DNA of 64,000 nt. It comes from Spirometra erinaceieuropaei. Taxonomy: Eukaryota > Platyhelminthes > Cestoda > Diphyllobothriidea > Diphyllobothriidae. Below the pieces are notes generated by a model. That model was not told the DNA's origin. It saw nothing but the letters and a program-made list of their open reading frames with translations, and ran no database searches. Shown one piece after another: positions 5,205 through 62,980 of the stretch. The stretch's first letter is position 1. Every line of letters begins with the position of its first letter. The position numbers and the translations under genes are program-made. The stretch lies in the NCBI GenBank assembly GCA_902702965.1, contig CACRXP010000010.1:459571-523570 (forward strand), written 5' to 3'.

Positions 5205-6099
5205 TATGAGTCGCCTATAACGGCTGCGAGGATCGATCATATAGCGGCGGACACCGACTGACTGCTCTCGACTATGCCGACGATATCGCCTTACTTGCTT
5301 CAAGTTTTAGTTATCTGTGGTCTATGGTGTCACGGGCGAACGAGGTCGCTAAATCGGTCGGTTTATCCATAAACGCTGGGAAGACCAAAGTGTTTTCAAG
5401 CTGCATCCCTGACCAGGAGAAGGCACCCCTCGGGATTGATGTCTGTCAACGCGAAGAAGCAGACAGTTTTAAATACCTCGGGACGAGTCTGCTGCCTAAT
5501 AGACAGAGTAAGGACAACATCGTCTCCCGAATCGATGCTGCCCACTGGGTTTTCTCAAGTCTTCGCAAATGCCTATGGGTCCGACGTGACCTCTCCGTCG
5601 CCACTCAGATTCGCGTGTATCGTGCATCTGTCCGGTCTGTCCTTCTCAACGGTTGTGAATGCTGGGCTTTGCGTGTGGAGGACGAGCGAAAACTGGAGGT
5701 ATTTGACCACCACTGCTTGAAGACCATTCTTCGAGTGAAGTTCACCGACTCCGTCCCAAATGAGACAGTCTGCGCTCGCTGCGACAACATCGCAAAGATA
5801 ACTCAGACCATCCAAGAAAGACGACTGAGGTGGTTTGGGCATGTTATTCGTCGTCCACTTCAGGAGCTCAGTGTTACTGCCCTCTATCCGGCACCGTTAC
5901 CCCATTGCGGAGGCGTCGAAGAGGGGGTCAGTTCAAAACCTGGCTCGACACAGTTCGTCAAGACATGGAGGTGGTTCTTGGACCTTCGGTATTCGGTCCA
6001 CGTCGTTGGCGAAGGGAATGGGTTGAGCTGTCCAGATCTGCTGCCGCGGATCGTCACGCGTGGAGAGGTACAGTTCTTGACATCATCGAGGTCGGCTAG
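5205..6099 (+). mobile_element. LINE reverse transcriptase, 3' part, frameshifted
   Basis: C-terminal half of a non-LTR retrotransposon ORF. The catalytic box LDYADDIALLASS lies at about 5268-5306. It is followed by GLSINAGKTKVFSS, FKYLGTSLLPN, then the thumb segment (LRKCLWVRRDLSVATQIRVY, LLNGCECWALRVEDERKLEV, RLRWFGHVIRRP). Near 5895-5905 a single-base indel moves the frame: the conserved tail (LRRRRRGGQFKTWLDTVRQD, then FGPRRWRREWVELSRSAAAD, ending DIIEVG and a stop at 6097-6099) continues in another frame. Upstream of the YADD box the reading soon meets a stop, so the copy is 5' truncated and dead. The family differs clearly from the FADD-type fragment at the left window edge. Hammerhead-bearing SINE sequence begins less than 50 bp after its stop codon. 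Confidence 0.92.
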
Positions 6100-6142
6100 A
6101 TCAGGCATGATCGCAGCCGTATCAAGTACAAGTTCAAGTATA

Positions 6143-6187
6143 TAGCGCCTGACGACGGCTAATAAGCCAGAAATAGCCATTCCAGTC
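6143..6187 (+). ncRNA. Hammerhead-like ribozyme motif, degraded
   Basis: Core CTGACGA at 6149-6155, stem II CGGCTAATAAGCCA (three G-C pairs, six-base loop), GAAA at 6170-6173, stem III ATAGCCAT (one mismatch in the palindrome), then T6181 as the expected cleavage base and CCAGTC. The 5' strand of stem I is disrupted (AGCGC in place of GACTGG), so this copy is probably inactive. Confidence 0.55.
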
Positions 6188-6215
6188 TCCCTTGTCTTTA
6201 TCCGTAATAACATAC
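6143..6215 (+). mobile_element. Family B SINE-like element, 3' fragment
   Basis: Only the ribozyme segment and about 25 bp downstream (CTCCCTTGTCTTTATCCG, matching CTCCCTTGTCTTTGTCGG in other copies) are present; the tRNA-like head is missing. It starts directly behind the short LINE tail, whose last bases are TCAAGTACAAGTTCAAGT-like. Confidence 0.7.
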
Positions 6216-6469
6216 TGCATACAGCGGAAGTGTCCACCTGCACACAAAGTAAGTTTGTTGACTAACGCTCTAGCGGGGCCAGTACTAGCTATTATCAGCG
6301 GAAACTTGTACCTTTGAGGAATAGTCTAATAACTGAAGACCCAGATATATCCTGAGGCGAATTCCTCGATGTCGCTCACGTTGACTTGTCTTCGATCGTT
6401 GAGCACGATGATCTCGGTTATTCATAGATATTTTGGCAGATTTTGAATAATTCATATTGACCCAATTGT
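6216..6469. other. Intergenic
   Basis: Nothing recognised. Confidence 0.4.
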
Positions 6470-6561
6470 GAAAAACCCTGCCCCTCGGTGGGATTCGAGC
6501 CCACGCAGTCAGTGAAAGGCTTTAGTACAGCCAACGCTCTAACCACTTGAGCTACGAGGCC
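6470..6561 (-). tRNA. tRNA-like gene or pseudogene with Pol III terminator
   Basis: Read on the minus strand from 6561: GGCCTCG, TA, a D arm with GCTC/GAGC pairing (A box TAGCTCAAGTGGTTAGAGC), an anticodon arm GGCT-GTACTAA-AGCC, an extra-long variable region, a perfect 5-bp T stem (GTGGG/CCCAC, 6488-6504) with loop CTCGAAT (B box), and CGAGGGG. Eight bases past the acceptor is a run of five T (6471-6475), a Pol III terminator. Problems: the first two acceptor pairs are G-G mismatches, and the loop gives ACT as anticodon, which is not a normal elongator. It could be a decayed serine-type or intron-bearing tRNA, or a SINE founder. It differs from the tRNA-like heads of family B. Confidence 0.5.
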
Positions 6562-7864
6562 CCGCCGAACAACGCGAGTTTAATCAAATTTGGGTCAAGT
6601 TACCCGACCAATTTACTGCAACGTCCGGAATCCACCAAATTGAGTCGATACGGAAAGGATCTCGATTATCTTTCCTCACAAGGGACCTCTAAGATGCATG
6701 GAGGGGGTGAACTACCTACGTAAACATTTTGAAAACCGAGGAAACACCTTGCCTTACCCGGTTACGAAATAACTTTATGAAGCCCACTTTCTCGGGCCTC
6801 CAGGTAACACCAAGAACCAGGACATGAAGAGTCGTATAGCAACCTCTGAGGTGCGCATAGATTTCAGCCACAGGCCAGTAGACGGAAGTCGTCAGCTGCA
6901 GTGTAAGCTGATTATAGGTGTGACAGAATTGGCTGTAAGAAGCACATCTAACAGTTGACCATCCATAGCTCATCTCTCACACTTCTGATTGACAACAGCG
7001 ATCTCTTTTGTGAGAGCGTTGCTGAAAACCTAACAATAACACCAACCTTCCCCCCGAGGTGCTAGGAAAGAGGTCTAGTGGGGGTTGACTGCATCATAAT
7101 GGCCAATGTAATGCCTCGGGAAATCGGTAAAATGAATTTGACCAGTAAGTCGGAGGCTTTCATACGGCGAGTACTTAAGCGTTTTATCGATCTCTTTTGC
7201 AGTGAGGAGGGGAATATTGCTCCGGAACAAGGGAGACCGCCTTCGTATAGCAGGTAATGAAGCTTGTGCGTTCAGAACGTCAAGTCTCTGGGCAACTTTG
7301 GGTACCATACTGCGAGAAGTACCTACGGTTGAAGAACGTGGACCAGTCTGGAAACACCCATTGCTTTGGGAGAATCCAACATCCCATTCCTGGAGACGAT
7401 AATAGTTCCGCCTCAGGCTATTCATATTTTTAGATTTTTCTAACTGAAACGGTATTCTTGCCTAGGCACTTTCTATGTTTGGCAGCAGCGCAGGTTTCTC
7501 CCTTATGGAGGAACAGAGATCTAGCTGGACGCGAGTCCTCTCCTCGATGCGATTTATGAGGGGCCAGCGCACCACCAGCAGCATTTAATGAAGAACCCCC
7601 ACAGAAAATTCCACAATTTTGGCGTAGTCGAGTTTTAGAAGGCCTCAGGGTTTCGTTTGCTCTTCATACAGGATGGGTTATCTAGGTGTTTGTGCCCTGT
7701 GTTTGAGGACCAGGAGTCGGGCAAAATTGCACCTTAATTTGGCCTTATGAATGTGAGATCCAAGCCGGTGTGTGAAATCCCGGTACACTGAGGGGGACCG
7801 GATCGTGTGTGGCACGCGTAGACGAATTGTTTAACTTCCTCGGCCACTCCCCGGGCCAACATCC
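6562..7864. other. Intergenic
   Basis: No gene or repeat was recognised in these 1.3 kb. The longest ORF (116 codons, minus strand, 7075-7425) resembles nothing I know. Confidence 0.4.
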
Positions 7865-8020: not shown

Positions 8021-8551
8021 TCACCATATGATTGTAAGCGCGGAATGTTTCAGTAATTTTCCATTGTTTGCCTTAATGATGCCGGATGGCTATTACTAGG
8101 ATTCGTAAAGATGTTCCAAGGTCTGGGGAGGGCGGACGTGAACTAGGATTGGGGGGGCTTGCGGATTTGCCAGTCCGTATTACCTTGAACAGCTAATATG
8201 CACGGTCTCCTACAAATCTCTGTACAAAGGCATCGTTTTTATAAAATGTTCACCACGAATAGGCGGATTAACTCTGGACGGCCACTTCTGCCGCATGAAT
8301 GAAAATATTAAGTCGAATGCTTCCAGTCCGCTGTAAGATGAAAGAAGGCTTCTGCGTCAGTTGCCTTTAGTCGTTATTTGTGTTGCCAATTTTTATTAGC
8401 AGCCCTGCTTGCGAGGTTTCCATGCCATCCTCGAGACATGCGCCTAGAAAAAGTGCATTTGCTTTAGTTCCACTGAGAAGGGCCTTTCCTAGTGTGCATC
8501 ATTATCACGATTTGGGTAAAAGAATACCTATTGCTACAGGATAATACTGAC
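8021..8551. other. Intergenic
   Basis: No feature recognised. Confidence 0.4.
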
Positions 8552-8870
8552 AGGATGGTAGTTGGTAGCCCTGCCCACTGGTTCTACGATTTTACCTACT
8601 GGCTCGATTTCAGTAGCTGCGATTACGCTCTCATTATGTCTGGGAGTGCACGCACAGAAGCCCTGTCAGGATGACTTTCTTCTTCACTTTAACCGCCCCG
8701 AGAACGAGGCGCTGCAAAAATGTCTATATAGACTCATCGTATTTCACCCCCACACGGATATCTTTAATAAATGGTGAAAGATTTATCCTAGGCGGATAAT
8801 GATTCATCATGCTTCTCATTTTGCTTCTAATTACATGCGCGCACAGTATTAATTGCATCAGATTAATTGC
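8552..8870 (+). repeat. Family C repeat, copy 1
   Basis: About 315 bp that match the reverse complement of 53.30-53.62 kb at roughly 85-90% by eye. It begins GGATGGTAGTTGGTAGCCC and includes the long shared run around CGAGAACGAGGCGCTGC and CTATATAGACTCAT. A frame of about 70 codons is open in both copies, but most differences between them change amino acids and a 1-bp indel breaks the frame. I therefore read it as non-coding mobile DNA. Confidence 0.7.
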
Positions 8871-8944
8871 ATAGGTACTGTCCTAGGCGGATTGGAGCGG
8901 GTCTCCGTTTCGTCGGTTTGCCTGCGTCCTTGGATCTTTTTACT

Positions 8945-9100
8945 CCAGACCTCCAGTGGTCCATTAGCTTCCGTCAGCCAACTTTACCCAACCCTGGGTT
9001 TTGGGGGGACCTGAGGCTCGAACCGGCGTTTATTGTTTATTAAATCCGACGCTCTAATCATTGAGCCACGGGTTCGTTGTCCTGTTAGTTGGGATAGGCT
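8945..9100 (-). mobile_element. Family B SINE-like element, decayed copy
   Basis: On the minus strand, AACCCGTGGCTCAATGATTA (A box) and GCCGGTTCGAGCC (B box, about 9015-9027) form the tRNA-like head. GGGTTGGGTAAAGTTGGCTG continues into a degraded hammerhead region (CTGACGG core, GAAA lost). The anticodon stem is not intact. Confidence 0.6.
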
Positions 9101-9756: not shown

Positions 9757-10160
9757 GATGCTGGGATCGGGAGAGGTGGTAGAGGGACGCTCACCAATTG
9801 TGTTACGGAGCTCATTCGTCGCGTTGTGCCTTACGGACTCTCTCTCGAGCCCAACCAGCAGCCGCACAGCGGCGCATGATATAGGCAGAATGGTATTGCC
9901 GACAAAGTCAAGGGAGACTAGAATGACCATTCCCAGCTTGTTGGACGTCTTCAGTCAGTCATACCTAGCCCTGAAGTGTGGAACACCTGCGGATTGATCC
10001 CATGACCTCTTAGAAGTCCAACCCCCCTAACCACTGAGCCACGGGCTCGTTGTCCTGTCGGTTGCGATCAGGAATATGCGGTGGTAGAGGGGCGCTCACC
10101 GATCGTTTTACGGAGCTTACTCGTCCCGCTGTGCCTTAAGGCTCTCTCTTCACCTTGTTG
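9757..10160 (-). mobile_element. Family B SINE-like element with block A on both sides (about 1.3 units)
   Basis: Read on the minus strand the order is block A (about 10160-10073), tRNA-like head (about 10050-9985, with GTGGCTCAGTGGTTAG as A box), ribozyme region (9960-9916), tail, then block A again (about 9855-9762). The two A blocks share GTAGAGGG(A/G)CGCTCACC, TTACGGAGCT and TGTGCCTTA(A/C)GG. Equivalent bases sit at 9779 and 10084, a period of 305 bp. This is a head-to-tail multimer rather than a simple monomer insertion. Confidence 0.75.
9916..9960 (-). ncRNA. Hammerhead-like ribozyme motif, degraded
   Basis: Minus strand: GACTGA, core CTGAAGA, a weakened stem II, GGAA in place of GAAA, TGGTCATT, then CTAGTC. 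It is recognisable by alignment with the 62.7 kb copy but unlikely to cleave. Confidence 0.45.
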
Positions 10161-17051: not shown

Positions 17052-17439
17052 GTTTTCATCGAACATTGCCCATCAGTACAACCAGTCGACTTTGGTGTAT
17101 TTCCACCAATTTAGAAGGCCTAAGAAACAAGGTAGCTCTTTTCGGTTGCTGGTTATATCCGCAATGAATACTAACTGAACTGTATTGCCAAGTCAATTGA
17201 TTCGGTTTTAATAGACTGAAATGCAGGCGGTGATAGGGATTGATGGTTTAGTGTGCGTTCGAAGCTTCCACTCACGTTTGACGTAAAAGACGAAAGCTGA
17301 TTCGAGGATCGTGGACCATTTCCCTCCTCGCATTTCCTTATTTACGGTAAAGGACGCATTTTATCCATGTTGGTCGTTGAACCAATAAATTAGGTCACTC
17401 TGTGTATCTGTTATATCGATATCGTGATCGATATATACA

Positions 17440-17730
17440 TACGTAGACAGAATTGTACTACCGACAAGGACAAGGGAGACTGGAATAGCCCTTTCCGGCT
17501 TATCAACCGTCGTCAGACAGCCGTACTCGACCCCGAAGTGTGGAACACCCGGGGCTCGAACTCGCGACCTGTTAGTTAGAAGTCCAACGCCTCTAAGCAC
17601 TAAGCCACGGGCCGTTGCCTTGTGGGTTGCGATCGGAAATATACGATGGTATAGGGGACGCTCACATATCGTTCTCACGGAACTCACTCGTTCCGTTTTG
17701 CCTTACTGGCTGTCTCTCGAGTCCAGTTGG
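17440..17730 (-). mobile_element. Family B SINE-like element, one unit
   Basis: Minus-strand order: block A (about 17730-17625), tRNA-like head (17613-17541), ribozyme segment (17522-17478), tail (CTCCCTTGTCCTTGTCGG). The head has A box TGGCTTAGTGCTTAGAGG (17590-17607) and B box GAGTTCGAGCC (17553-17563). The loop around GGACTTCTAAC places TCT as anticodon, pointing to a tRNA-Arg(TCT)-like ancestor. The element could be transcribed by RNA polymerase III from these internal boxes. It abuts a second copy in the opposite orientation. Confidence 0.8.
17478..17522 (-). ncRNA. Hammerhead-like ribozyme motif
   Basis: Minus strand: GGCTGT (stem I), CTGACGA (17516-17510), stem II CGGTTGATAAGCCG (here with a proper C-G closing pair), GAAA, then AGGGCTAT in place of the stem III palindrome, T and CCAGTC. 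Stem I has one mismatch and one G-U, and stem III one mismatch. Confidence 0.6.
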
Positions 17731-17744
17731 GCAGGTTAACCTGC
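17731..17744. repeat. 14-bp perfect palindrome at the inverted junction
   Basis: GCAGGTTAACCTGC is an exact inverted repeat and sits where the minus-oriented family B copy ends and the plus-oriented copy begins. Confidence 0.85.
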
Positions 17745-17945
17745 AGTTCGCGAGTTCGAGCCCCAGGCGTTCCAAACTTCGGATTGGGTATAACTGGCTG
17801 ACGACGGCCAATAAGCCAGAAATGGCCATTCCAACCTCCCTTGTCTTTGTCGGGAGGGCTATTCTGCCTATATCATGCGCTGCTGTGCGGCTGCTAGTAG
17901 GGCTCGAGGAAGCCCGTAAGGCACAACGGGACGAGCGAGTTCCTT
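17745..17945 (+). mobile_element. Family B SINE-like element, permuted copy
   Basis: Starts inside the tRNA-like head (CGCGAGTTCGAGCCCC, the B box), continues through the ribozyme and tail, and ends with block A (CCCGTAAGGCACAACGGGAC through GAGCGCCATTCTACCATC). Block A is thus 3' of the ribozyme here, while in the neighbouring copy it is 5' of the tRNA head. A short ACAC/ATAT run follows. Confidence 0.8.
17793..17836 (+). ncRNA. Hammerhead ribozyme motif with intact palindromic stem III
   Basis: AACTGG, core CTGACGA (17798-17804), stem II CGGCCAATAAGCCA, GAAA (17819-17822), stem III ATGGCCAT (17822-17829, a perfect palindrome without loop), T17830 as cleavage base, then CCAACC. Stem I keeps only three pairs because GTC has become ACC. 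All core residues are present. Confidence 0.65.
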
Positions 17946-18242
17946 AAAAACGATCGCTGAGCGCCATTCTACCATCACACACACATATATAAGAATATTC
18001 TTTTTCATTTTTAGGCACCACTAATGAAGGGTTGAATTTCCTAGGTCTTTTTTATTTGCCGATATAGTGACTTACCCGCTTGTTAGATTTTTTGGCAGCT
18101 GATCTTTTCCCTCAAAGTGAATTAGTGCACTAGCCACTGGGTAGCTACTAGCTGAAACTTGCAATTTGTTAATAGTTTATGGCCGAGCCAACAATTGGTT
18201 GACAGGACTTACAAAACTACACAACACGCTGTTCTCTCTCAG
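17946..18242. other. Intergenic or intron
   Basis: A+T-rich; nothing recognised before the first exon of candidate gene 2. Confidence 0.4.
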
Positions 18243-21936: not shown

Positions 21937-22005
21937 GCATGATGGCAACAGATAAGTCAGAAGTGGCTGTTTCAGTCCGTCTCGTCTTTGTTGGTTCCCC
22001 ATTTG
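21937..22005 (+). mobile_element. Family B ribozyme segment, heavily decayed
   Basis: TGGGCATGATGGCAACAGAT, AAGTCAGAAGTGGCTGTTTC and CAGTCCGTCTCGTCTTTGTT follow the order of family B stem I, core, stem II, GAAA, stem III and tail, but the CTGACGA core and GAAA are lost. Confidence 0.5.
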
Positions 22006-24684: not shown

Positions 24685-24780
24685 GGCCGGGTAGAGGAGC
24701 GCTCGCCGCTCGCGATATGGAACTCGCTTGTTCCGTTATGCCTTGGGGCCCTCTCTTGAGCCTCGCCAGTAGTCTTGTAA
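24685..24780 (-). mobile_element. Family B block A fragment
   Basis: GTAGAGGAGCGCTCGCCG, GGAACTCGCTTGTTCCGTTA, TGCCTTGGGGCCCTCTCTTG and AGCCTCGCCAGTAG follow the block A order seen at 62.89-62.97 kb. No tRNA head or ribozyme is present. Confidence 0.65.
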
Positions 24781-27304: not shown

Positions 27305-29442
27305 ACATACCCCAAAAGAAGGAACAAGTTTAGTTTTCTCGCCAGTATGATGGGATAAAGGAGGGCCAGCCCGATATAAATAAACGATTTCTCCTATTCG
27401 TTTTTAATGTACCTCGCGGAAGGTCGATTCAGAGTGAGGCGCGTTAAAAAAATTACTGCGCTCACTTGATTTCTGCAGATTTAGCACGATTTACCGTGGC
27501 GTTCATCTCCTTAGCCAGTGGTACATACGAACTCTCCTCGTCTTTTACGCTGAAACAGCCTACTTTGCTTTGTGACCTCCAAAGGTCCCCTTTTCTCCGT
27601 AATAGTGAGGCAGGAAGTCTTTTCCTCTAACCTTTTCATCCAAAGCACTGCATCGTTTTGACATTCACATAATGGAATGACCGGAAGTTGGGAGAAAGAG
27701 GTTGCGGCCTACGTGGCTACGGTAAAAACTCCCTGGCAAGTGCGTAGGGAGGCAAGTGAAGCCACGGGACATCGATCGAGATGACGTACATCCGCCGTCA
27801 TCGGATGCTTACGAAGTCTGGGAGAAGAAGGCTGTAAACTTGAAGAGAACGCAGGTTATATTAGCCTACGTTTTCGGTCTCGTACAGGAGGCCGTCTCCA
27901 GAGACTGTGAGAAGGCAACCTCAAATGAGAAGTTTTTATGGTCGAACAACGAGGAAGAGGGGTAGGGATGGGGGGGGGGGAGGGGACGATGTCTACGGTG
28001 AGCCTGAGTCCATACCGTCTCACGGCGACGTGCATCCTAGGCTGGGAATTAGGTCGCGCCTCTTGGTCACGTGAACGAACCGCGTGGTAGCAGGGGTGGG
28101 GGGGGGGAGGAGTGTCAATGTGTCTGCTAATGGAGTTAGTATCAGGCACTCAGGCTTCCATCCAGTTATTGCATCTGCAAGTACTGCAAGTGAAGAATTT
28201 GCATTTCATAGGTCCTCGGTTTTTAGGGTCTAATTCATCGAATGTGTGAGGAGCCACGCCAATATGCCTCACCTCTCAGATCTGGTCAAAAGTGCCGCCC
28301 AGCCGATCTACTCTGCCAAGTCGAGCTTGCGTTTTGAATGTAGCGCGCTCTGCCGTCCAGTACGGGGAGATGTTTTTAGATAAGGCAGCCACTGCGGTTA
28401 CGAGAATTTAACAGACACCTGGAGGTTGGAGAGCTTTAGATTTCTCACGATCGCTTGGAAAAAAAGGCGCACACTGCAGCGACTACAGGGATAGTGCCCA
28501 CGTACTGAATGATTCACCATTTTGTCGGCACAGGTACTAGCTAAAAGCCCAACCACGTATTTCGCGAATTTTGCGCGGCTGAATGATGCAATTGCGAGGA
28601 GTTTGGCTCATCAAGGAGTTCCCCAGCGTTCTCCATGCATTTTCTGGTATACGGATTCCAACGCTTGCTTTAAATCAAAAACAAAACAGAATTAATCCAT
28701 CCTGCTGATAAAAGTGCAGTGCGTCGTTATGGTTTTTTTGTTGCTGCCAAGTTTCAGAAGATGGGCCCAGCAAAAAATGCCTCCGACACATCCCCGTCGG
28801 CTGAGTGGACAGCTTAAAAGCAGATGAGTAACGATTTTACGATTGCTACGAGGAGACCTCCAGTAATGAGTCCGATTATTAATTTCCACCCCTACGAGAA
28901 TTTGTTTGCAAAAGTATTCCCCAAGCCACCTTATGTGACGGTTAGTAAAAAAATGTTTGCCCGAAGTTTGCTGAGAAGGTCTGCTGTGTAGTCTTGCAAA
29001 AACACCTTCTTCGATGGTTATTTTCTTCGTTTAGTCGTTGTGAGCCAGCTGAAATCTCATTGGCTAACTTAGCGAAGGACCGTTTTTGGCAGAATTTAAG
29101 TGAATTAAAAGATGCCTGAACGTTGCTCCCGAGTATGTAAAGTTCAGAATTACAATATACCACCAAGAGATGCACCAGTATCACCATTGGTTGTGTTAAT
29201 ATTTAAGCAATAAGCAACAGAAGTGAACACTGAGGTTCTGTATTAATAGTAAGCTTGTAAAACTGGCTGTCCTGCTGTTTGGTCTCAGCCATCGGGAAAC
29301 CACACACACAAGCACATACAGTACTTGACTAAAACTTGGTGACACGGTAGGGATGTGGGACCGCAATGGCGTTATTGCCGTCAAGATACAACTTTCAAGC
29401 AAAGATGCGAGTTCCAGGAACTAGTTGACCAGATGAAGAAGA
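27305..29442. other. Intergenic with two poly-G tracts
   Basis: G runs at about 27969-27981 and 28096-28108 lie 130 bp apart in similar context (GATGGGGG and GTGGGGG followed by GGAGG or GAGGGG), suggesting a duplicated unit. No gene was recognised. Confidence 0.5.
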
Positions 29443-29562
29443 AGCGATCACTGGAACAAGGGCTTTATTCGCCTGACGTTCCGAATTCTCACTTGAACCC
29501 ATCATCAGAGTTCAAGTGAGTATCCGAAACGTCAGGCGAATAAAGCCCTTATTCCAGCGATC

Positions 29563-29566
<4 letters not shown>
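29443..29566. mobile_element. Foldback element D, copy 1
   Basis: The left arm (CGATCACTGGAACAAGGGCT, TTATTCGCCTGACGTTCCGA, ATTCTCACTTGAAC) pairs with the right arm (GTTCAAGTGAGTATCCGAAA, CGTCAGGCGAATAAAGCCCT, TATTCCAGCGATCAC) around the loop CCATCATCAGA. Arms are about 56 bp and nearly perfect. GAAGAAGAAG precedes the left arm and CTTCTTCTTC follows the right arm, extending the inverted repeat. The same design recurs at 58.46 kb. Confidence 0.9.
29472..29512 (-). ncRNA. PLE-type hammerhead-like motif in foldback D
   Basis: Minus strand: core CTGATGA (29508-29502), T, stem II GGGTTC-AAGTGA-GAATTC, GGAA (GAAA with one change), a 2-bp CG stem III, TC as cleavage site, then AGG. The right arm retains the unmutated GAAACGTCAGG. 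Stem I is short in this reading because the same bases also pair as the foldback. Confidence 0.5.
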
Positions 29567-36860: not shown

Positions 36861-39285
36861 TAATAAAGAGGGGCTGGGAAAGCAATTTCTGACCTTTTTA
36901 CCGTTATCAGCCAGCCGCGTCCTAGCTTCAGGCGGACATTTAAAATGTGTCAGCTATACCCTAGGTTTAGGCGGGGAATCGAAATTTAGACGAAAGGCAG
37001 TTACTCAGTAAACCTTTATTAATGAAACAGTCCGGGAATAAATGTACTGCTCCAGGTGGCAGATATCCTTCTTTCCAAATGCCTCCTAGGAAACCCCTCC
37101 TCGCCTCCACCAATTGTGTACTATATCTACCAATTGGCGACCTCATGACTTCCATCAAGCCGATATGAAATAAAGGAGTGGTGGTAATTCATTTAGTCTG
37201 TTCATTTATTACGCATTCAAAAGTCGGCTGTACTGGTCACTTTGTTCTGAAGGCGGACGGTCCGGATTTAATTGGGCTGCAAATCGTCTACTGAGGCTTT
37301 TGATGATGCGTGACACGTTTTGATATTGCTGTTTAAATGGGAAGGGAACATACGCAAAATAACAATTTACACTTAGAAGAGGAGGTTAAATGAAACTTCC
37401 TATCGGCAAATAAGAGCATTTTTTTAAATAAAGTGTCACGCAATTCCACGCAATGCGACGTAATGTTTACGAGTTGTAGCGGACTGCCTCCATTTGGTCC
37501 CTACAGGAGCAATAACTTCTGAAAAAGTTCATGCCGTATTGTTTTCCAGTGGCTAAAACAAATATCAGATAGCTTTGTCGGTATCAACAATGTCACATAT
37601 GGCGAACACTTCAAAGATATAAAAATAGGCCCGGTGGCGATATGTTTACCACTCTTATGGCCTGCTCGGTGGTCCAGCTGCGGGATTCACGATGCCCATG
37701 AAGATTAGGCCTTCCTAGTGATATTATGTGATTGGTCAACTGTCATCAAAGTCTCCCAATACTACCTCATCAAATATAAGTTTCCATGGCCGTCGCCGAC
37801 ACTAAAACGACTGCTGAATGAGAAAAATTCCACTTGCTAAAAGCTACGGCAGTTCCTAAAGGCCAAATAACAACTATCACTGCCAATTCCTTCTGTGTTT
37901 CTGGTATTCGATAGCCAATAATAACCCCAGCTAGGCTGGACATCAGAGCAGTGTCAGAAATGCCTCAATGTATACCAGGATTTCAACTTACACATAGTCG
38001 TGGTTGATGACGAATAGAAAACTTCGAACTTCGTTTTAACGGGCAAGAGGTTTGTGTGGTCGTAGCCCGATCCGATAGTCGAAAGCTACATGGTAGTAAA
38101 AAGTCGAAGAGTATATAACACATCCCAAAACCAACTCTATTCTTATTGGTCTGTTATGCGGAATTTAACGAGAAACTGGGCCGTTTGCAACAATGTCTTC
38201 TTTAGCGGAAACTGCACAACACTTTCCTCAGCTTGCCCAATCATGCTTAAACAATCCTTTGTTCACCCTTTCCCATGCAAGAGGGCTACAATGTTAAAGA
38301 AGCTGCCTTGGACAGGAAGTAAGACAAGCAAGTATCAGAAATAACATAAAGCCTACGGTATTTAGAAGAAGAGGGGGTGGAATGCGAGTTATGATTTGCC
38401 GGGCAACCATATCCCACTTTCGCCAGATCTAAGGGGTTCTAGGTTTTCCTTCCAGTACGCATTGTAGAAAAACGAAATGTTATATTCCATCATTGTATTC
38501 AATTCTCAATAGAAAGGGTTCTATTTAAATATATCGACATTTTACCACAGGAATGAAATATATTGTTATTTACAGAATGTCGATCGGACACGAACGTACA
38601 TTCCACGAAATGGTTCCAAACAAGATTGTCTGGTATTTTTATAAGTTTACCAAGTCACCTGTGACGCACTTTCCGCGAAGCTGTTGGCCAATTAAGGACA
38701 AAAAGTTGGTTTTCGGCAGTTAGTGAATATGATGCGGCTATTCCGCTGTGACCGATGGATTTCTTCCGAAAATTTGTGCATCAGATTCCTGTCCGTGCCT
38801 ATAGACCTTAGCACATATAAACTGATTTACCTAAAGTTAGAGATTAATTTCTGAGGAAATAAAAAGGAACAATATTCTCTACGCACTTTTTGCACTTTCG
38901 AGAATAAAATTTTATGTCGCAAATTCATGCTGAAAAATGGACAGACTGCGCTGGCCATTACTGGTTTGTTGACCGCCGTCATTCAGCAGCTGACCATTTT
39001 CAGACCGGAAAGATCTGACGAACTGGATACGGCTCATTTCAAAAGTCCTTAGGACAGAGGTTCTAGGCATGTCTGACCGACAACGGTAAATGCACTCGAA
39101 AAGTTCGCCGCAATTCCTACCCCCAGTTAACCGAAACATATGGAGGCGTGATAGGAATGACGCTTTTGTTATTGCTGCAAGGTATCACCAAGAAATACAC
39201 GACAGTGCTAATGATTCAACTGTACTAGGAATCTCGTTTTCGCTTGGAAAAGGGGCTTGTAGCAAACTATCTTGACATCCTCGCA
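36861..39285. other. Intergenic, A+T-rich
   Basis: No feature recognised. A plus-strand 84-codon frame (38090-38344) was inspected and not recognised. Upstream exons of the CUB-like gene may lie here. Confidence 0.35.
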
Positions 39286-42815: not shown

Positions 42816-43699
42816 CTAAAAATGTGTTTTCGGCGAAGTGATGCCAAAACTGGCTCATTCTAATTCAAACGCTTGCGGACCTTTTGTGCTACTAAACTGG
42901 AGACCGGGGAGTCAGATGGAAGTCCTCGGGTCTGTTCATACATTTTTTCCAACAGGGGTGAAATGAGCCTTCTGCAAAATATTCACGCAATCTCACGAAC
43001 TGCCCATGTGCGTGTCTTGTCTTCTGCCACAGTTTTGATCGACTGTGCCTACGTACTTCGACTAGTCGGGGAAACCAGTCTAAAGTACATCGTGTTCGCC
43101 TAGTCATGCCTTGAATTGCCCTTTTGACGTATAGACTGACTGCAGCAAAACAGTTGATTTGCGGATCTTGAGACCATGCACACAGTCATCGACAAAGCCG
43201 CAGCATTTGTCCACCAAGGGTAAAGATGCTTTATAAGGAAAGTATAATTATAAACTTCTGCTGGAGTTTGAGACCTCACAAAGCAGGCTATATGCTTAAC
43301 CATCTCATCACGTCACGTACTTGCGACGTTTTCATTACTTCTTTGAAAAGGCCTTTAGAGGTTGTGCCGAAAACCTAAGGTTTCATTCACCGATCTTAGA
43401 GGTAATAGGGGAGAATAGACCGAAAACTGCCATTCCACTTCAAATTGTCTTTGTGTGCAGTATCTCTATTGATGCAACATATCGCTTGTAGAGACATCGG
43501 TAAGGACGCACCAGGGTCATTGTGACACTGCGCCCTCGCCTCTTATATTGACGCGCTCTCGTAAATGGATGAAATGTAATCTACTTCTTTTGTAACAACA
43601 AACTGGAAAAACTTCCAAAAATGCTAAACTTTTGCTTGCAGTGTCAGATATCTGGATATCTGCATCACTCCTCGGGGATCGGGTTCCTGGCACGTTCAA
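42816..43699. other. Intergenic; ambiguous coding signal
   Basis: At 42.89-43.11 kb both strands carry protein-like frames of about 70 codons and I could not decide between them. At 43.42-43.48 kb GAAAACTGCCATTCCA followed by TTGTCTTTGTG is a possible family B relic. Confidence 0.3.
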
Positions 43700-52500: not shown

Positions 52501-53299
52501 CTTACGGAACCGGTTGTAATAGGGGCTATACGGTTTGGGCAAATGAGTGGAGGCGTAAATGGCGCTTGTAGTGTATGCCTGGAATTGACGCTCCTGGTTA
52601 AGTGGAAGCCTAATTTAAATAAGGTGAAAAATGAAAGGAGTGTATAGAACTAAGCATGGATAATTAGTACGGTATGCGGAATAATTTCATTCTTGCCCCA
52701 GATTGGAAAGAATAACAAGTGAAGGCGAACAATCAATAGGAAGAACGCAGTGTGTATTAAGGTCATTCCGCAGTATGTGCGATAGTACTCTAACCGACAG
52801 AATAGACATGAGAACACGAGAGTTAAGCAGCGGCACGCAGGACGGCATAACGCAAGCGGGGTAAGACTTTAATGCGAAAAATATGTTTGGGCGAAAGAGA
52901 AAATCTGCAAATAATAGTCTATTGTCACTGTGGCCACATCTAGGATTAAAACTATTGCAGTAGTTGTTTGCTATACGTGAATAAAGTACTATATAATGTA
53001 AAGAGGAATTAGCACTCTGTATATGAAGTTACACTTTGTTCTGCTTGCAGAGTCCAGTCTCGTAGAAGGCGAAGGAAAGCAGGACCGCAAGTGGATAGGC
53101 CGACAGATTATTCGCGGATCCTAGAAATAATCCAGTCGTCCTACCTAGTGCAGTATCTCCAACAGAAAGGACTACTGACCTGTAGGGTCTTATGTAGATG
53201 TCGAAAGGCCATGCCCTTACAAATACTGCGACAGCACATGGATGTTTATGCCTTCAGGTAACAGCTGGGTACTGTGGCATGCAGCTTAGGATAGTACCT
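52501..53299. other. Intergenic
   Basis: Nothing recognised. Confidence 0.35.
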
Positions 53300-53625
53300 C
53301 TAAAATGAATTAGATACAGGTAACACAGTGCGCGCATGCAATTACAAGCATAATGAGAAGCATGATGAAGCATAATCCGCCTAGGAAAAATCTTTCGCCG
53401 TTTACTAAAGATTTCCGTGTGGGGTGCAATACAATGAGTCTATATAGACATTTTTGCAGCGCCTCGTTCTCGGGGCGGTTAGAGTGAAGAAGAAAGTCAT
53501 CCTGGGAGGGCTTCTGCGCGTGCACTACCAGACATAATGAGAACGTAATCACAGAGCTTGAAATCGAGCCAGTAAGTGCAATTGTAGAATCAGTGGGCAG
53601 GGCTACCAACTACCATCCTGCCGGT
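53300..53625 (-). repeat. Family C repeat, copy 2 (inverted relative to copy 1)
   Basis: Reverse complement of 8552-8870 with about 85-90% identity by eye. Its left end abuts a degenerate TAACCC-like run (53626-53680), the same association as at 52.43 kb. Confidence 0.7.
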
Positions 53626-61500: not shown

Positions 61501-62675
61501 TGCATAGCAGCAAATTATTCCAAACAGCGGTAGCGCGATTAAGTCTGCCTGTCATTCACCTCTATTTAATGCCCTTATGGTTTACACTCTCATATGTTCA
61601 TTTTAGGTGTGAAGTTAGTTCTTTGTATTTCTCGACCAAACGGAAGTCTACAACGTTTGTCCAAGAACACTGTTTTAATATTTAATGAATATCTTATTGC
61701 TCCAACAATTTCTTTGACCTGCTTGCCGTTAGTAAATCCAGAAGGAACCTTATATGAAATAGTTTGATCATTAAGAAAAACTCGAAATACCGAAAATTTT
61801 GAGTAACATTTAAGAAAAAAATAAATGCTAACATTGTACGTTTATAAAGCAGGACTACACAACTGTGGCACATAAAATTACATGCCGTATTTCGGTGAAA
61901 AAGGCACCAGTGTTTGGGTAAATTGAGGCAATTTGGAATGACTCAGTGACGTGGAATCCGAGGGGGATATTTTACTTTGCAGCATATAGTATGAATTACA
62001 TATTGCTCTTTTATTTGACTTTTGGATACACCGCTCATCGCCATAAAAAGGATATTCAAGAGGCAAACTAAGCCTTGCGTAGAGTTTTAAAGATTAAAAA
62101 ATAACTAGTAACAGATAAAAAGAGAACGGTGGACTAGGAATCCCTTCCAATGGCTCATTATATTTGACTCCATAAAGATGTTCTTGAAATCTGTTCGAGT
62201 TCGCGTGAAGTAAAATTGATAACTACAAAAAACGGACAGTTCTTCATTTGAGTCATTCAAATGTGTCTCAACGCCGAAGATGTTTTGTTTGTTTTTTTGT
62301 CTGCCAACCTCCTCAATAGTGCGTTAGTCGGCTCCAGTGAGATGCTCCTTCCAGAAGGCTTCACACAAACCCACTTCACGTGAATTGCCAAGCCGAATAA
62401 TGGCACACAGTGAAATGTGGTATCAACGAAGAGCCCAGCGCTCATCAATGTGATCTGAACGTAATAGTGCGGCCTTTCCACTAATCAAAATACAGCCTTC
62501 GTTTGGGTCTGCTATAAGTTCCCACCATATCTGCAAAACTTGCGGTAGTGAGAGACCAATATCACCAGGAAAACATAGTTGATAACAGAGAGGGGAGAAA
62601 TCTGCTGCGGACTGTCCCATTATATGACTTAAATATTAATATGCTGACAATAAGTTTCCCAGGAGAGCCGTTAAT
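58573..62675. other. Intergenic, A+T-rich
   Basis: About 4.1 kb without a recognised gene, RNA or repeat. The longest frame (117 codons, 58754-59107 plus) contains an aromatic and Cys-rich stretch but matches nothing known. Unrecognised short exons may be present. Confidence 0.3.
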
Positions 62676-62980
62676 CGATATACTCATAGGCAGAATGACA
62701 TTACCGACAATGACAAAAGAGACTGGAATGGACATTTCTGGCTTATTAGCCGTCGTCAGCCAGTCATACCCAACCCCGAGTGGTACACCCGAGGCTCGAA
62801 CTCGCGACCTGTTTGTTAGAAGTCCACGCCTCTAATTATTGAGGCGCGAGCCCGTTGCCTTGTCGGTTTTTCGATCGGGAATATAAAATGGTAGGGGGCG
62901 CTCACCGATCGTTCTTGCGGAACTGACTTGTTCTGTTGTGCTTTATGGACTCTCTCTGGAGCCCAACCAGCAGTTTGCGA
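62676..62980 (-). mobile_element. Family B SINE-like element, near-complete unit
   Basis: Minus-strand order: block A (about 62980-62865; complement of GCGCTCACCGATCGTTCTTG, CGGAACTGACTTGTTCTGTT), tRNA-like head (about 62860-62790; B box in TCGCGAGTTCGAGCCTCGG, anticodon region GGACTTCTAAC), ribozyme (62765-62721), tail (CTCTTTTGTCATTGTCGG). Length is about 300 bp, equal to one repeat period of the 9.8-10.2 kb copy. Unit ends fall inside the sequence that is continuous in other copies, so this is a permuted monomer. Confidence 0.8.
62721..62765 (-). ncRNA. Hammerhead ribozyme motif, best stem I
   Basis: Minus strand: GACTGG (62765-62760), core CTGACGA (62759-62753), stem II CGGCTAATAAGCCA (GGC/GCC, six-base loop), GAAA (62738-62735), stem III ATGTCCAT (62735-62728; one base off the perfect palindrome), T62727 as cleavage base, CCAGTC (62726-62721). 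Stem I is a perfect 6 bp and every core position fits the hammerhead consensus. The C/A pair at the base of stem II is not canonical. Confidence 0.72.

Follow-up and report, generated by a model that had tools for sequence, protein, structure and literature searches.

A hammerhead-like segment in a tRNA-headed repeat of the tapeworm Spirometra erinaceieuropaei

Flukes have SINE-like repeats with hammerhead ribozymes, and a 45-nt segment in a repeat of the diphyllobothriid tapeworm Spirometra erinaceieuropaei raises the question of whether tapeworms have them as well, and, if so, whether the hammerhead cuts. The segment lies near the end of a 64,000-nt stretch of genomic DNA (contig CACRXP010000010.1; the window hereafter), and the original prediction had read it as a minimal type I hammerhead ribozyme within a tRNA-headed SINE family.

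The layout, its chance expectation and the repeat that carries it

The predicted string was found exactly where it had been placed, downstream of a B box in the copy that we call c62k, where it reads GACTGG-CTGACGA-CGGCTAATAAGCCA-GAAA-TGTCCA-TT-CCAGTC (Table 1). Several corrections to the prediction were needed; among them, the segment is on the minus strand, and positions 10.1 and 11.1 hold an unpaired C.A. The predicted cut site, by hammerhead numbering, is between U 62727 and C 62726 of that strand. Read literally, stem III consists of 3 bp and a 2-nt loop, so that a single molecule could form only ~2 bp of it. A strict descriptor was written. Its letters were CUGANGA, GAAA and UH; its pairs were 6/6 in stem I, 3-6 in stem II, where the first (10.1-11.1) was unconstrained, and, within 14 nt, A15.1-U16.1 and two further pairs of stem III. 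Its sole match in the 64-kb window was the c62k segment, and when run on 400 Mb simulated with a first-order Markov model it returned 2 rows, or 0.0006 expected per window, a value that understates the true chance, since the descriptor was designed after the match was known. A looser descriptor matched 4 places in the window and 0-5 in each of 20 simulated windows, so loose matching by itself proves nothing; three of the four places (62.7k, 17.5k and a diverged one at 36.9k) belong to the SINE family. The hammerhead-like layout of the c62k segment is real and above chance. One chance fit among the thousands of windows screened would nevertheless be compatible with 0.0006 per window, and the segment could then be a conserved domain of the SINE body whose inverted repeats and letters merely happen to fit. 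We consider this rather unlikely, as the required letters come with stems of 6 bp and 4 bp and, in one copy and in the consensus, with a palindrome.

BLAST with the minus-strand c62k sequence found the repeat at six places in the window: 62.7k, 17.5k (-), 17.8k (+), 9.9k (-), 6.15k (+) and 9.0k (-, decayed). All four of the additional copies that had been predicted were located among them; in the one reported from 17793, the palindromic stem III is present as claimed, but stem I has only 3 of its 6 pairs. None of the copies in the window is complete, and the three other long ones diverge from c62k by 18-27%, indicating that these are old. The copy at 6.15k lacks the 5' side of stem I, since its homology begins exactly at CTGACGA. 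The two copies near 17.5k and 17.8k, c17a (minus) and c17b (plus), lie head to head at 17427-17976, ~10-20 bp apart. By eye, an additional 3' tail with TATATCGAT is present in c62k (62674-62694) and c17a (17427-17444) and absent from c10k and c17b; the shared tail perhaps marks a subfamily, or is perhaps linked to the template.

Table 1. Positions of the repeat copies and their parts in the window.
Feature	Position	Strand	Remarks
c62k, hammerhead-like segment	62721..62765	-	45 nt; string match and descriptor
c62k, stem I	62765-62760 with 62726-62721	-	
c62k, CUGACGA	62759-62753	-	
c62k, stem II hairpin	62752-62739	-	C10.1.A11.1 mismatch inside
c62k, GAAA	62738-62735	-	
c62k, stem III region	62734-62729	-	
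c62k, U16.1	62728	-	
c62k, H17	62727	-	
c62k, tRNA-like head	62780..62853	-	A-box-like 62832-62845; B box 62793-62803
c62k, 5' segment of unit	62890..62973	-	end of Y, and X
c17a, segment	17478..17522	-	CUGACGA, GAAA intact; C10.1-G11.1 paired; stem III broken
c17a, tRNA-like head	17540..17613	-	
c17b, segment	17792..17836	+	CUGACGA, GAAA, palindrome AATGGCCATT intact; C.A at 10.1-11.1
Y-X, downstream of c17b	17900..17976	+	5' segment placed after body
c10k, segment	9916..9960	-	CUGAAGA; GGAA replaces GAAA; C10.1-G11.1
c10k, first X	10080..10149	-	
c10k, second X	9775..9845	-	
c6k	6149..6221	+	5'-truncated copy
c9k	8963..9085	-	degenerate copy; CTGACGG, A at 10.1; remaining hammerhead part decayed
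Stray X segment, alone	24690..24762	-	
c36	36872..36916	-	diverged segment copy; CTGATAA, GAAA; flanks not detectably c62k-like
c38	38944..38987	-	diverged, decayed segment copy; flanks not clearly c62k-like
c21	21940..21995	+	diverged, decayed copy; part of segment and downstream tail

The repeat is a multi-copy, tRNA-headed unit of ~304 bp. Its B box, GAGTTCGAGCC, is exact in 3 of the 6 BLAST copies, and an A-box-like stretch lies on the same strand, both upstream of the segment. Head and segment share a strand in c62k, c17a and c10k, and likewise in c17b, in which the head is partial. The two boxes bear out the predicted tRNA-headed family, with support from ARAGORN at relaxed settings only: at these it called a tRNA in some of the heads, with identities that disagree, and in the c62k head it called none, relaxed settings included. 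Elsewhere in the window, ARAGORN reported a tRNA-Ser(ACT)-like gene at 6479-6562 (-), with an Rfam tRNA score of 29.4 against a cut-off of 29; BLAST at E up to 1 gave no link between this gene and the family heads.

A segment that we call X precedes the head, and in c10k it returns after the body, 304 bp further on, as a direct repeat whose two members are 86% identical. This copy, the only one with more than one unit in the window, comprises ~1.2 units with one hammerhead segment. The recurrence of X in c10k, together with the Y-X segment that follows the body of c17b, points to a template that was probably longer than one unit, either a concatemer or a circle. Inspection by eye for target-site duplications gave no clear result. 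The presence of X at both ends of c10k, with tRNA-like sequence inside the element, also recalls TRIM-like LTR elements of the Helenus type, which have a tRNA-like insert; the X repeats would then be the LTRs, an arrangement compatible with other readings of the segment. In Helenus, however, the tRNA-like part reportedly lies inside the LTRs, whereas here it lies between the X repeats, and we regard a TRIM-like origin as extremely improbable.

A profile built from the six copies found three diverged loci in its first round, at 38.9k (E 5e-5), 36.9k (E 5e-5) and 21.9k (E 4e-4), while none under 1e-3 appeared in 50 simulated windows (best 0.0012). The profile positions matched, 101-147 at 38.9k and 99-150 at 36.9k, nearly coincide with the borders of the hammerhead. 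Over the 45 nt, c36 and c38 are 69% identical to c62k, a level that 0 of 200 shuffles attained, and their 60-nt flanks behaved differently, with as good a likeness to c62k in 200/200 (upstream) and 103/200 (downstream) shuffles for c36, and in 15/200 (upstream, weak) and 170/200 (downstream) for c38. For c21, the segment is 60% identical to that of c62k (6/200 shuffles as good), with 89/200 upstream and 19/200 downstream. As these loci were found via the segment, its high identity follows from how they were selected, and it is the absent likeness of the flanks that is the news; that the segment occurs at 36.9k and 38.9k without like flanks argues against a chance fit within a SINE body. Upstream of the 36.9k segment, a handful of bases look by eye like the c10k linker, so decay of the flanks is possible, and at c36 and c38 the segment has either travelled between repeats as a module or outlasted flanks that decayed more quickly. 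Also upstream of c36, 36917-37000 (-) holds a B-box-like ATTTCGATTCC and, by eye, a linker-like stretch in duplicate; this may be a second tRNA-headed family that has the segment too.

The 10.1-11.1 pair and the evidence for a ribozyme

The case for a hammerhead layout, as originally predicted, is strengthened by the layout itself, by its rarity in simulation and by the presence of the segment at two loci whose flanks are not detectably like those of c62k, and it is weakened by a missing pair. Besides A15.1-U16.1, G10.1-C11.1 is given as the most conserved pair of the hammerhead in the part of PMC3088659 cited here. It is present in 0 of the 9 copies that extend over the site: position 10.1, overlooked in the prediction, is C in eight and A in one (c9k), never G. 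The partner of C10.1 is G11.1 in two of the eight (c17a and c10k) and A11.1 in six, and as CCG to CCA is the change expected from CpG decay, C10.1-G11.1 may be ancestral in the family. A non-significant profile match at 43413 (E 0.06) has G in the 10.1 column and no hammerhead core.

The remaining letters and stems are unevenly preserved. CUGANGA and GAAA are both intact in 4 of the 9 copies reaching the site (c62k, c17a, c17b and c6k), and one or both are changed in the other five (c10k, c9k, c36, c38 and c21). Stem I has all 6 pairs in c62k and c36, 5 in c17a and c10k, 4 in c38 and 3 in c17b (29/36 cells), c6k being without one side and c9k and c21 not countable. A change on both sides of stem I, A-U to G-C, gave c36 its GGCUGG/CCAGCC, the one such change in six rows. 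Covariation over these rows was not above shuffles, 238 of 500 reaching the score. In the same rows 76.5% of cells were paired, compared to a shuffled mean of 75.7 and 33-53% in slid versions, and an excess over the latter is to be expected of a structure drawn from one of the six rows. Left out of the pair count were c9k, its hammerhead part being decayed, and c6k and c21, in which one stem I side is absent; c9k was also left out of the domain alignment, and the weak profile matches at 43413 (E 0.06) and 47698 (E 0.84) entered one alignment but not the count of copies. Absent covariation is expected if copies decay after insertion, and so it neither helps nor hurts much. Pairwise identity among the four long copies was 77.4% in the 45-nt segment and 77.3-80.1% elsewhere in the unit, i.e., in these copies the segment is under no extra constraint over the remaining unit.

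Rfam hammerhead models, which the prediction had proposed as a check, gave no match at E up to 10, either on the window or on the 62.7k and 17.5k segments alone (91-base and 106-base stretches). The same models recognised 6/6 controls at E up to 1, with 21-47 bits, the gathering score being reached by none. The controls, 6 of at least 120 viral-contig stretches, had been chosen with a canonical G-C stem II and were therefore easier than even a real minimal variant, which leaves the silence of Rfam informative and the comparison unfair. With G10.1-C11.1 in 0/9 copies, Rfam negative where controls were seen and covariation within shuffles, a working minimal type I hammerhead, as the prediction had it, is not supported. 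The Rfam result, the absence of the canonical pair from 9/9 copies and the absence of both covariation and extra conservation are also what a SINE body domain with a fortuitous likeness to a hammerhead would give.

Folding was no more generous to the individual copies. For the consensus segment with G11.1, the hammerhead fold has -18.5 kcal/mol and the MFE fold -20.4, and the hammerhead is the MFE of neither consensus form (G11.1 or A11.1). In c62k the values are -10.7 and -15.4, the hammerhead again not being the MFE, and c17a and c17b gave no hammerhead fold, alone or in pairs. By bracket reading, the two-strand MFE of the G11.1 consensus is a double hammerhead in which both strands contribute to one palindromic stem III. 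Association as strong was seen in 39 of 300 shuffles of this consensus and 46 of 300 of the A11.1 consensus, and c62k dimerises poorly (290/300 shuffles as strong). Dimer energy, being ordinary against shuffles, was rejected as hammerhead evidence.

It could nevertheless be that the masters of the family do cut in spite of C10.1-G11.1, at a low rate or as dimers, and that this working variant of the hammerhead processes concatemers. The pair is formed in c17a and c10k, and CCA elsewhere would fit CpG decay of CCG. Natural departures from G10.1-C11.1 exist: cave-cricket hammerheads have compensatory changes at the pair (PMC2837043, part cited), in an axolotl hammerhead the base of stem II is U-U (passage in PMC7229834), and U-U at 10.1-11.1, also natural, supports more cutting than other mispairs, which ranks these, and so C.A too, below it (PMC3088659, same part). 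A comparison with viral contigs speaks against a working variant. It covered, among the matches listed, 182 stretches with the remaining core, 173 of them distinct, with stem closure judged by a simple rule. The stems closed, among the distinct matches listed, in 136/147 with G-C, a count inflated because the first scan required G-C, in 5/10 with U-U and in 1/2 with A-U. A scan for C10.1, which covered one stem II sequence, returned 7 stretches, 4 distinct, and 0/4 closed into a hammerhead; two further viral stretches, in which C10.1-G11.1 goes with a CGG/CCG stem II, have, by eye, no closing stem I. We think a working variant unlikely. In a fuller version, the ribozyme at work in this tRNA-headed tapeworm retroposon would be the C10.1-G11.1 hammerhead; it would act as a double hammerhead through its self-complementary stem III, process pol III transcripts of more than unit length and have passed, as a 45-nt module, from one repeat family to another, unrelated one in the same genome. 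This version we judge to be quite improbable.

Relatives among flatworm and metazoan hammerheads

The closest parallels in build are the Sm-alpha and Sj-alpha repeats of schistosomes, described in the cited part of PMC2770079 as SINE-like, high-copy and hammerhead-bearing, and in S. mansoni as tRNA-derived (tRNA-Gln-TTG); the type I hammerhead of Sm-alpha is fast-cutting (excerpt of PMC6155905). Compared by build, not by sequence, the tapeworm repeat resembles them: it is SINE-like, comes from a flatworm, and has its hammerhead-like segment downstream of a tRNA-like head that contains pol III boxes. It differs in its tapeworm host, in the C10.1 of its hammerhead and in its head, to which ARAGORN gives no agreed tRNA in place of tRNA-Gln-TTG. 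This setting, a tRNA-headed repeat in a flatworm whose fluke relatives carry hammerheads (PMC2770079, same part), also tells against a chance fit. A literature search found, among the matches listed, no description of a tapeworm SINE family with a hammerhead, so the novelty originally suggested holds for tapeworms among those matches and not for tRNA-derived hammerhead SINEs as such, given those of flukes (PMC2770079). A 25-base degenerate pattern of the segment had no match in a viral collection, and a 20-base exact one had none in a bacterial and archaeal collection that may exclude the window's own genome. The antisense frame of the repeat, compared with a protein collection in a search for copies in other species, produced 4 candidates each time, none of which scored.

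Metazoan non-LTR retrozymes, with units of ~150-300 bp and a type I hammerhead whose helix III is often weak and which cuts as a dimer (passages in PMC7761336 and PMC7229834), share with the tapeworm repeat a short unit and the type I layout. In the part of PMC7761336 cited, retrozymes seem to be without promoters, whereas the tapeworm unit has a pol III-type head, and its one multi-unit copy has one hammerhead. Minimal hammerheads with a reduced or missing stem III, which may act as dimers, are described for Penelope-like elements in the same source (PMC7761336), and Penelope is abundant in Sparganum and Spirometra (PMC8166898, part cited). The likeness is in the reduced stem III, although in the tapeworm repeat this stem is a palindrome, not absent. 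Hammerheads of Penelope elements have reportedly been treated by Cervera in 2014 and Lunse in 2017. The Sparganum and Spirometra assemblies contain 36,816 and 35,223 SINEs, respectively, and ~10% Penelope, according to the same part of PMC8166898.

Several other features of the window were recorded. Proteins of Spirometra and Sparganum (74% over 88% of the query; 88% over 71%) are the best matches of a reverse-transcriptase fragment at 5324-6142, and those of Schistocephalus and Dibothriocephalus come next (among the best 120 of 138 matches). Two 338-bp repeats, 88% identical, at 53284-53620 (+) and 8551-8888 (-), each contain a stretch resembling U5 snRNA (46.7 and 38.7 bits with Rfam RF00020, whose cut-off is 40), and are perhaps a U5-derived repeat family or copies of a U5 gene. 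At 29442-29566, with a CTT microsatellite following it, a long hairpin matches MIR7504 on both strands below the cut-off and looks like a short inverted-repeat element.

A hammerhead-derived domain and its meaning

The reading that we prefer, to which we give even chances, is that the repeat is a tapeworm counterpart of the fluke SINEs with a hammerhead-derived domain that is crippled or very slow in the sampled copies. Because 10.1 is C and not G, the ribozyme was probably crippled or very slow in the masters of these copies as well. Descent of the segment from a hammerhead, whether by this route or as a working variant, we hold to be likely; that the family consensus cuts is rather unlikely, and that c62k itself does is very unlikely. 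The element would be a short non-autonomous retroposon of a diphyllobothriid tapeworm, with a unit that runs from the 5' X through the tRNA-like head with its pol III-type boxes, the hammerhead-derived segment, the tail and Y to the next X. Pol III transcription would start from the head and yield RNA of more than unit length, in which the hammerhead would probably pair with a second one via the palindromic stem III (AAUGGCCAUU), and a cut 3' of U 62727 would free a unit-length RNA, to be copied by the reverse transcriptase of a putative LINE or Penelope helper. The Pfam search that bears on such a Penelope enzyme covered five ORFs from the window.

If the family is inactive, it would be a ribozyme fossil inside a spreading element, and a warning that matching the core letters without a check of 10.1-11.1 over-calls hammerheads. 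If it is active, SINEs with hammerheads would be a feature of tapeworms as well as flukes, the retrozyme-like elements would gain a pol III-driven one, and the requirement for G10.1-C11.1 would be loosened.
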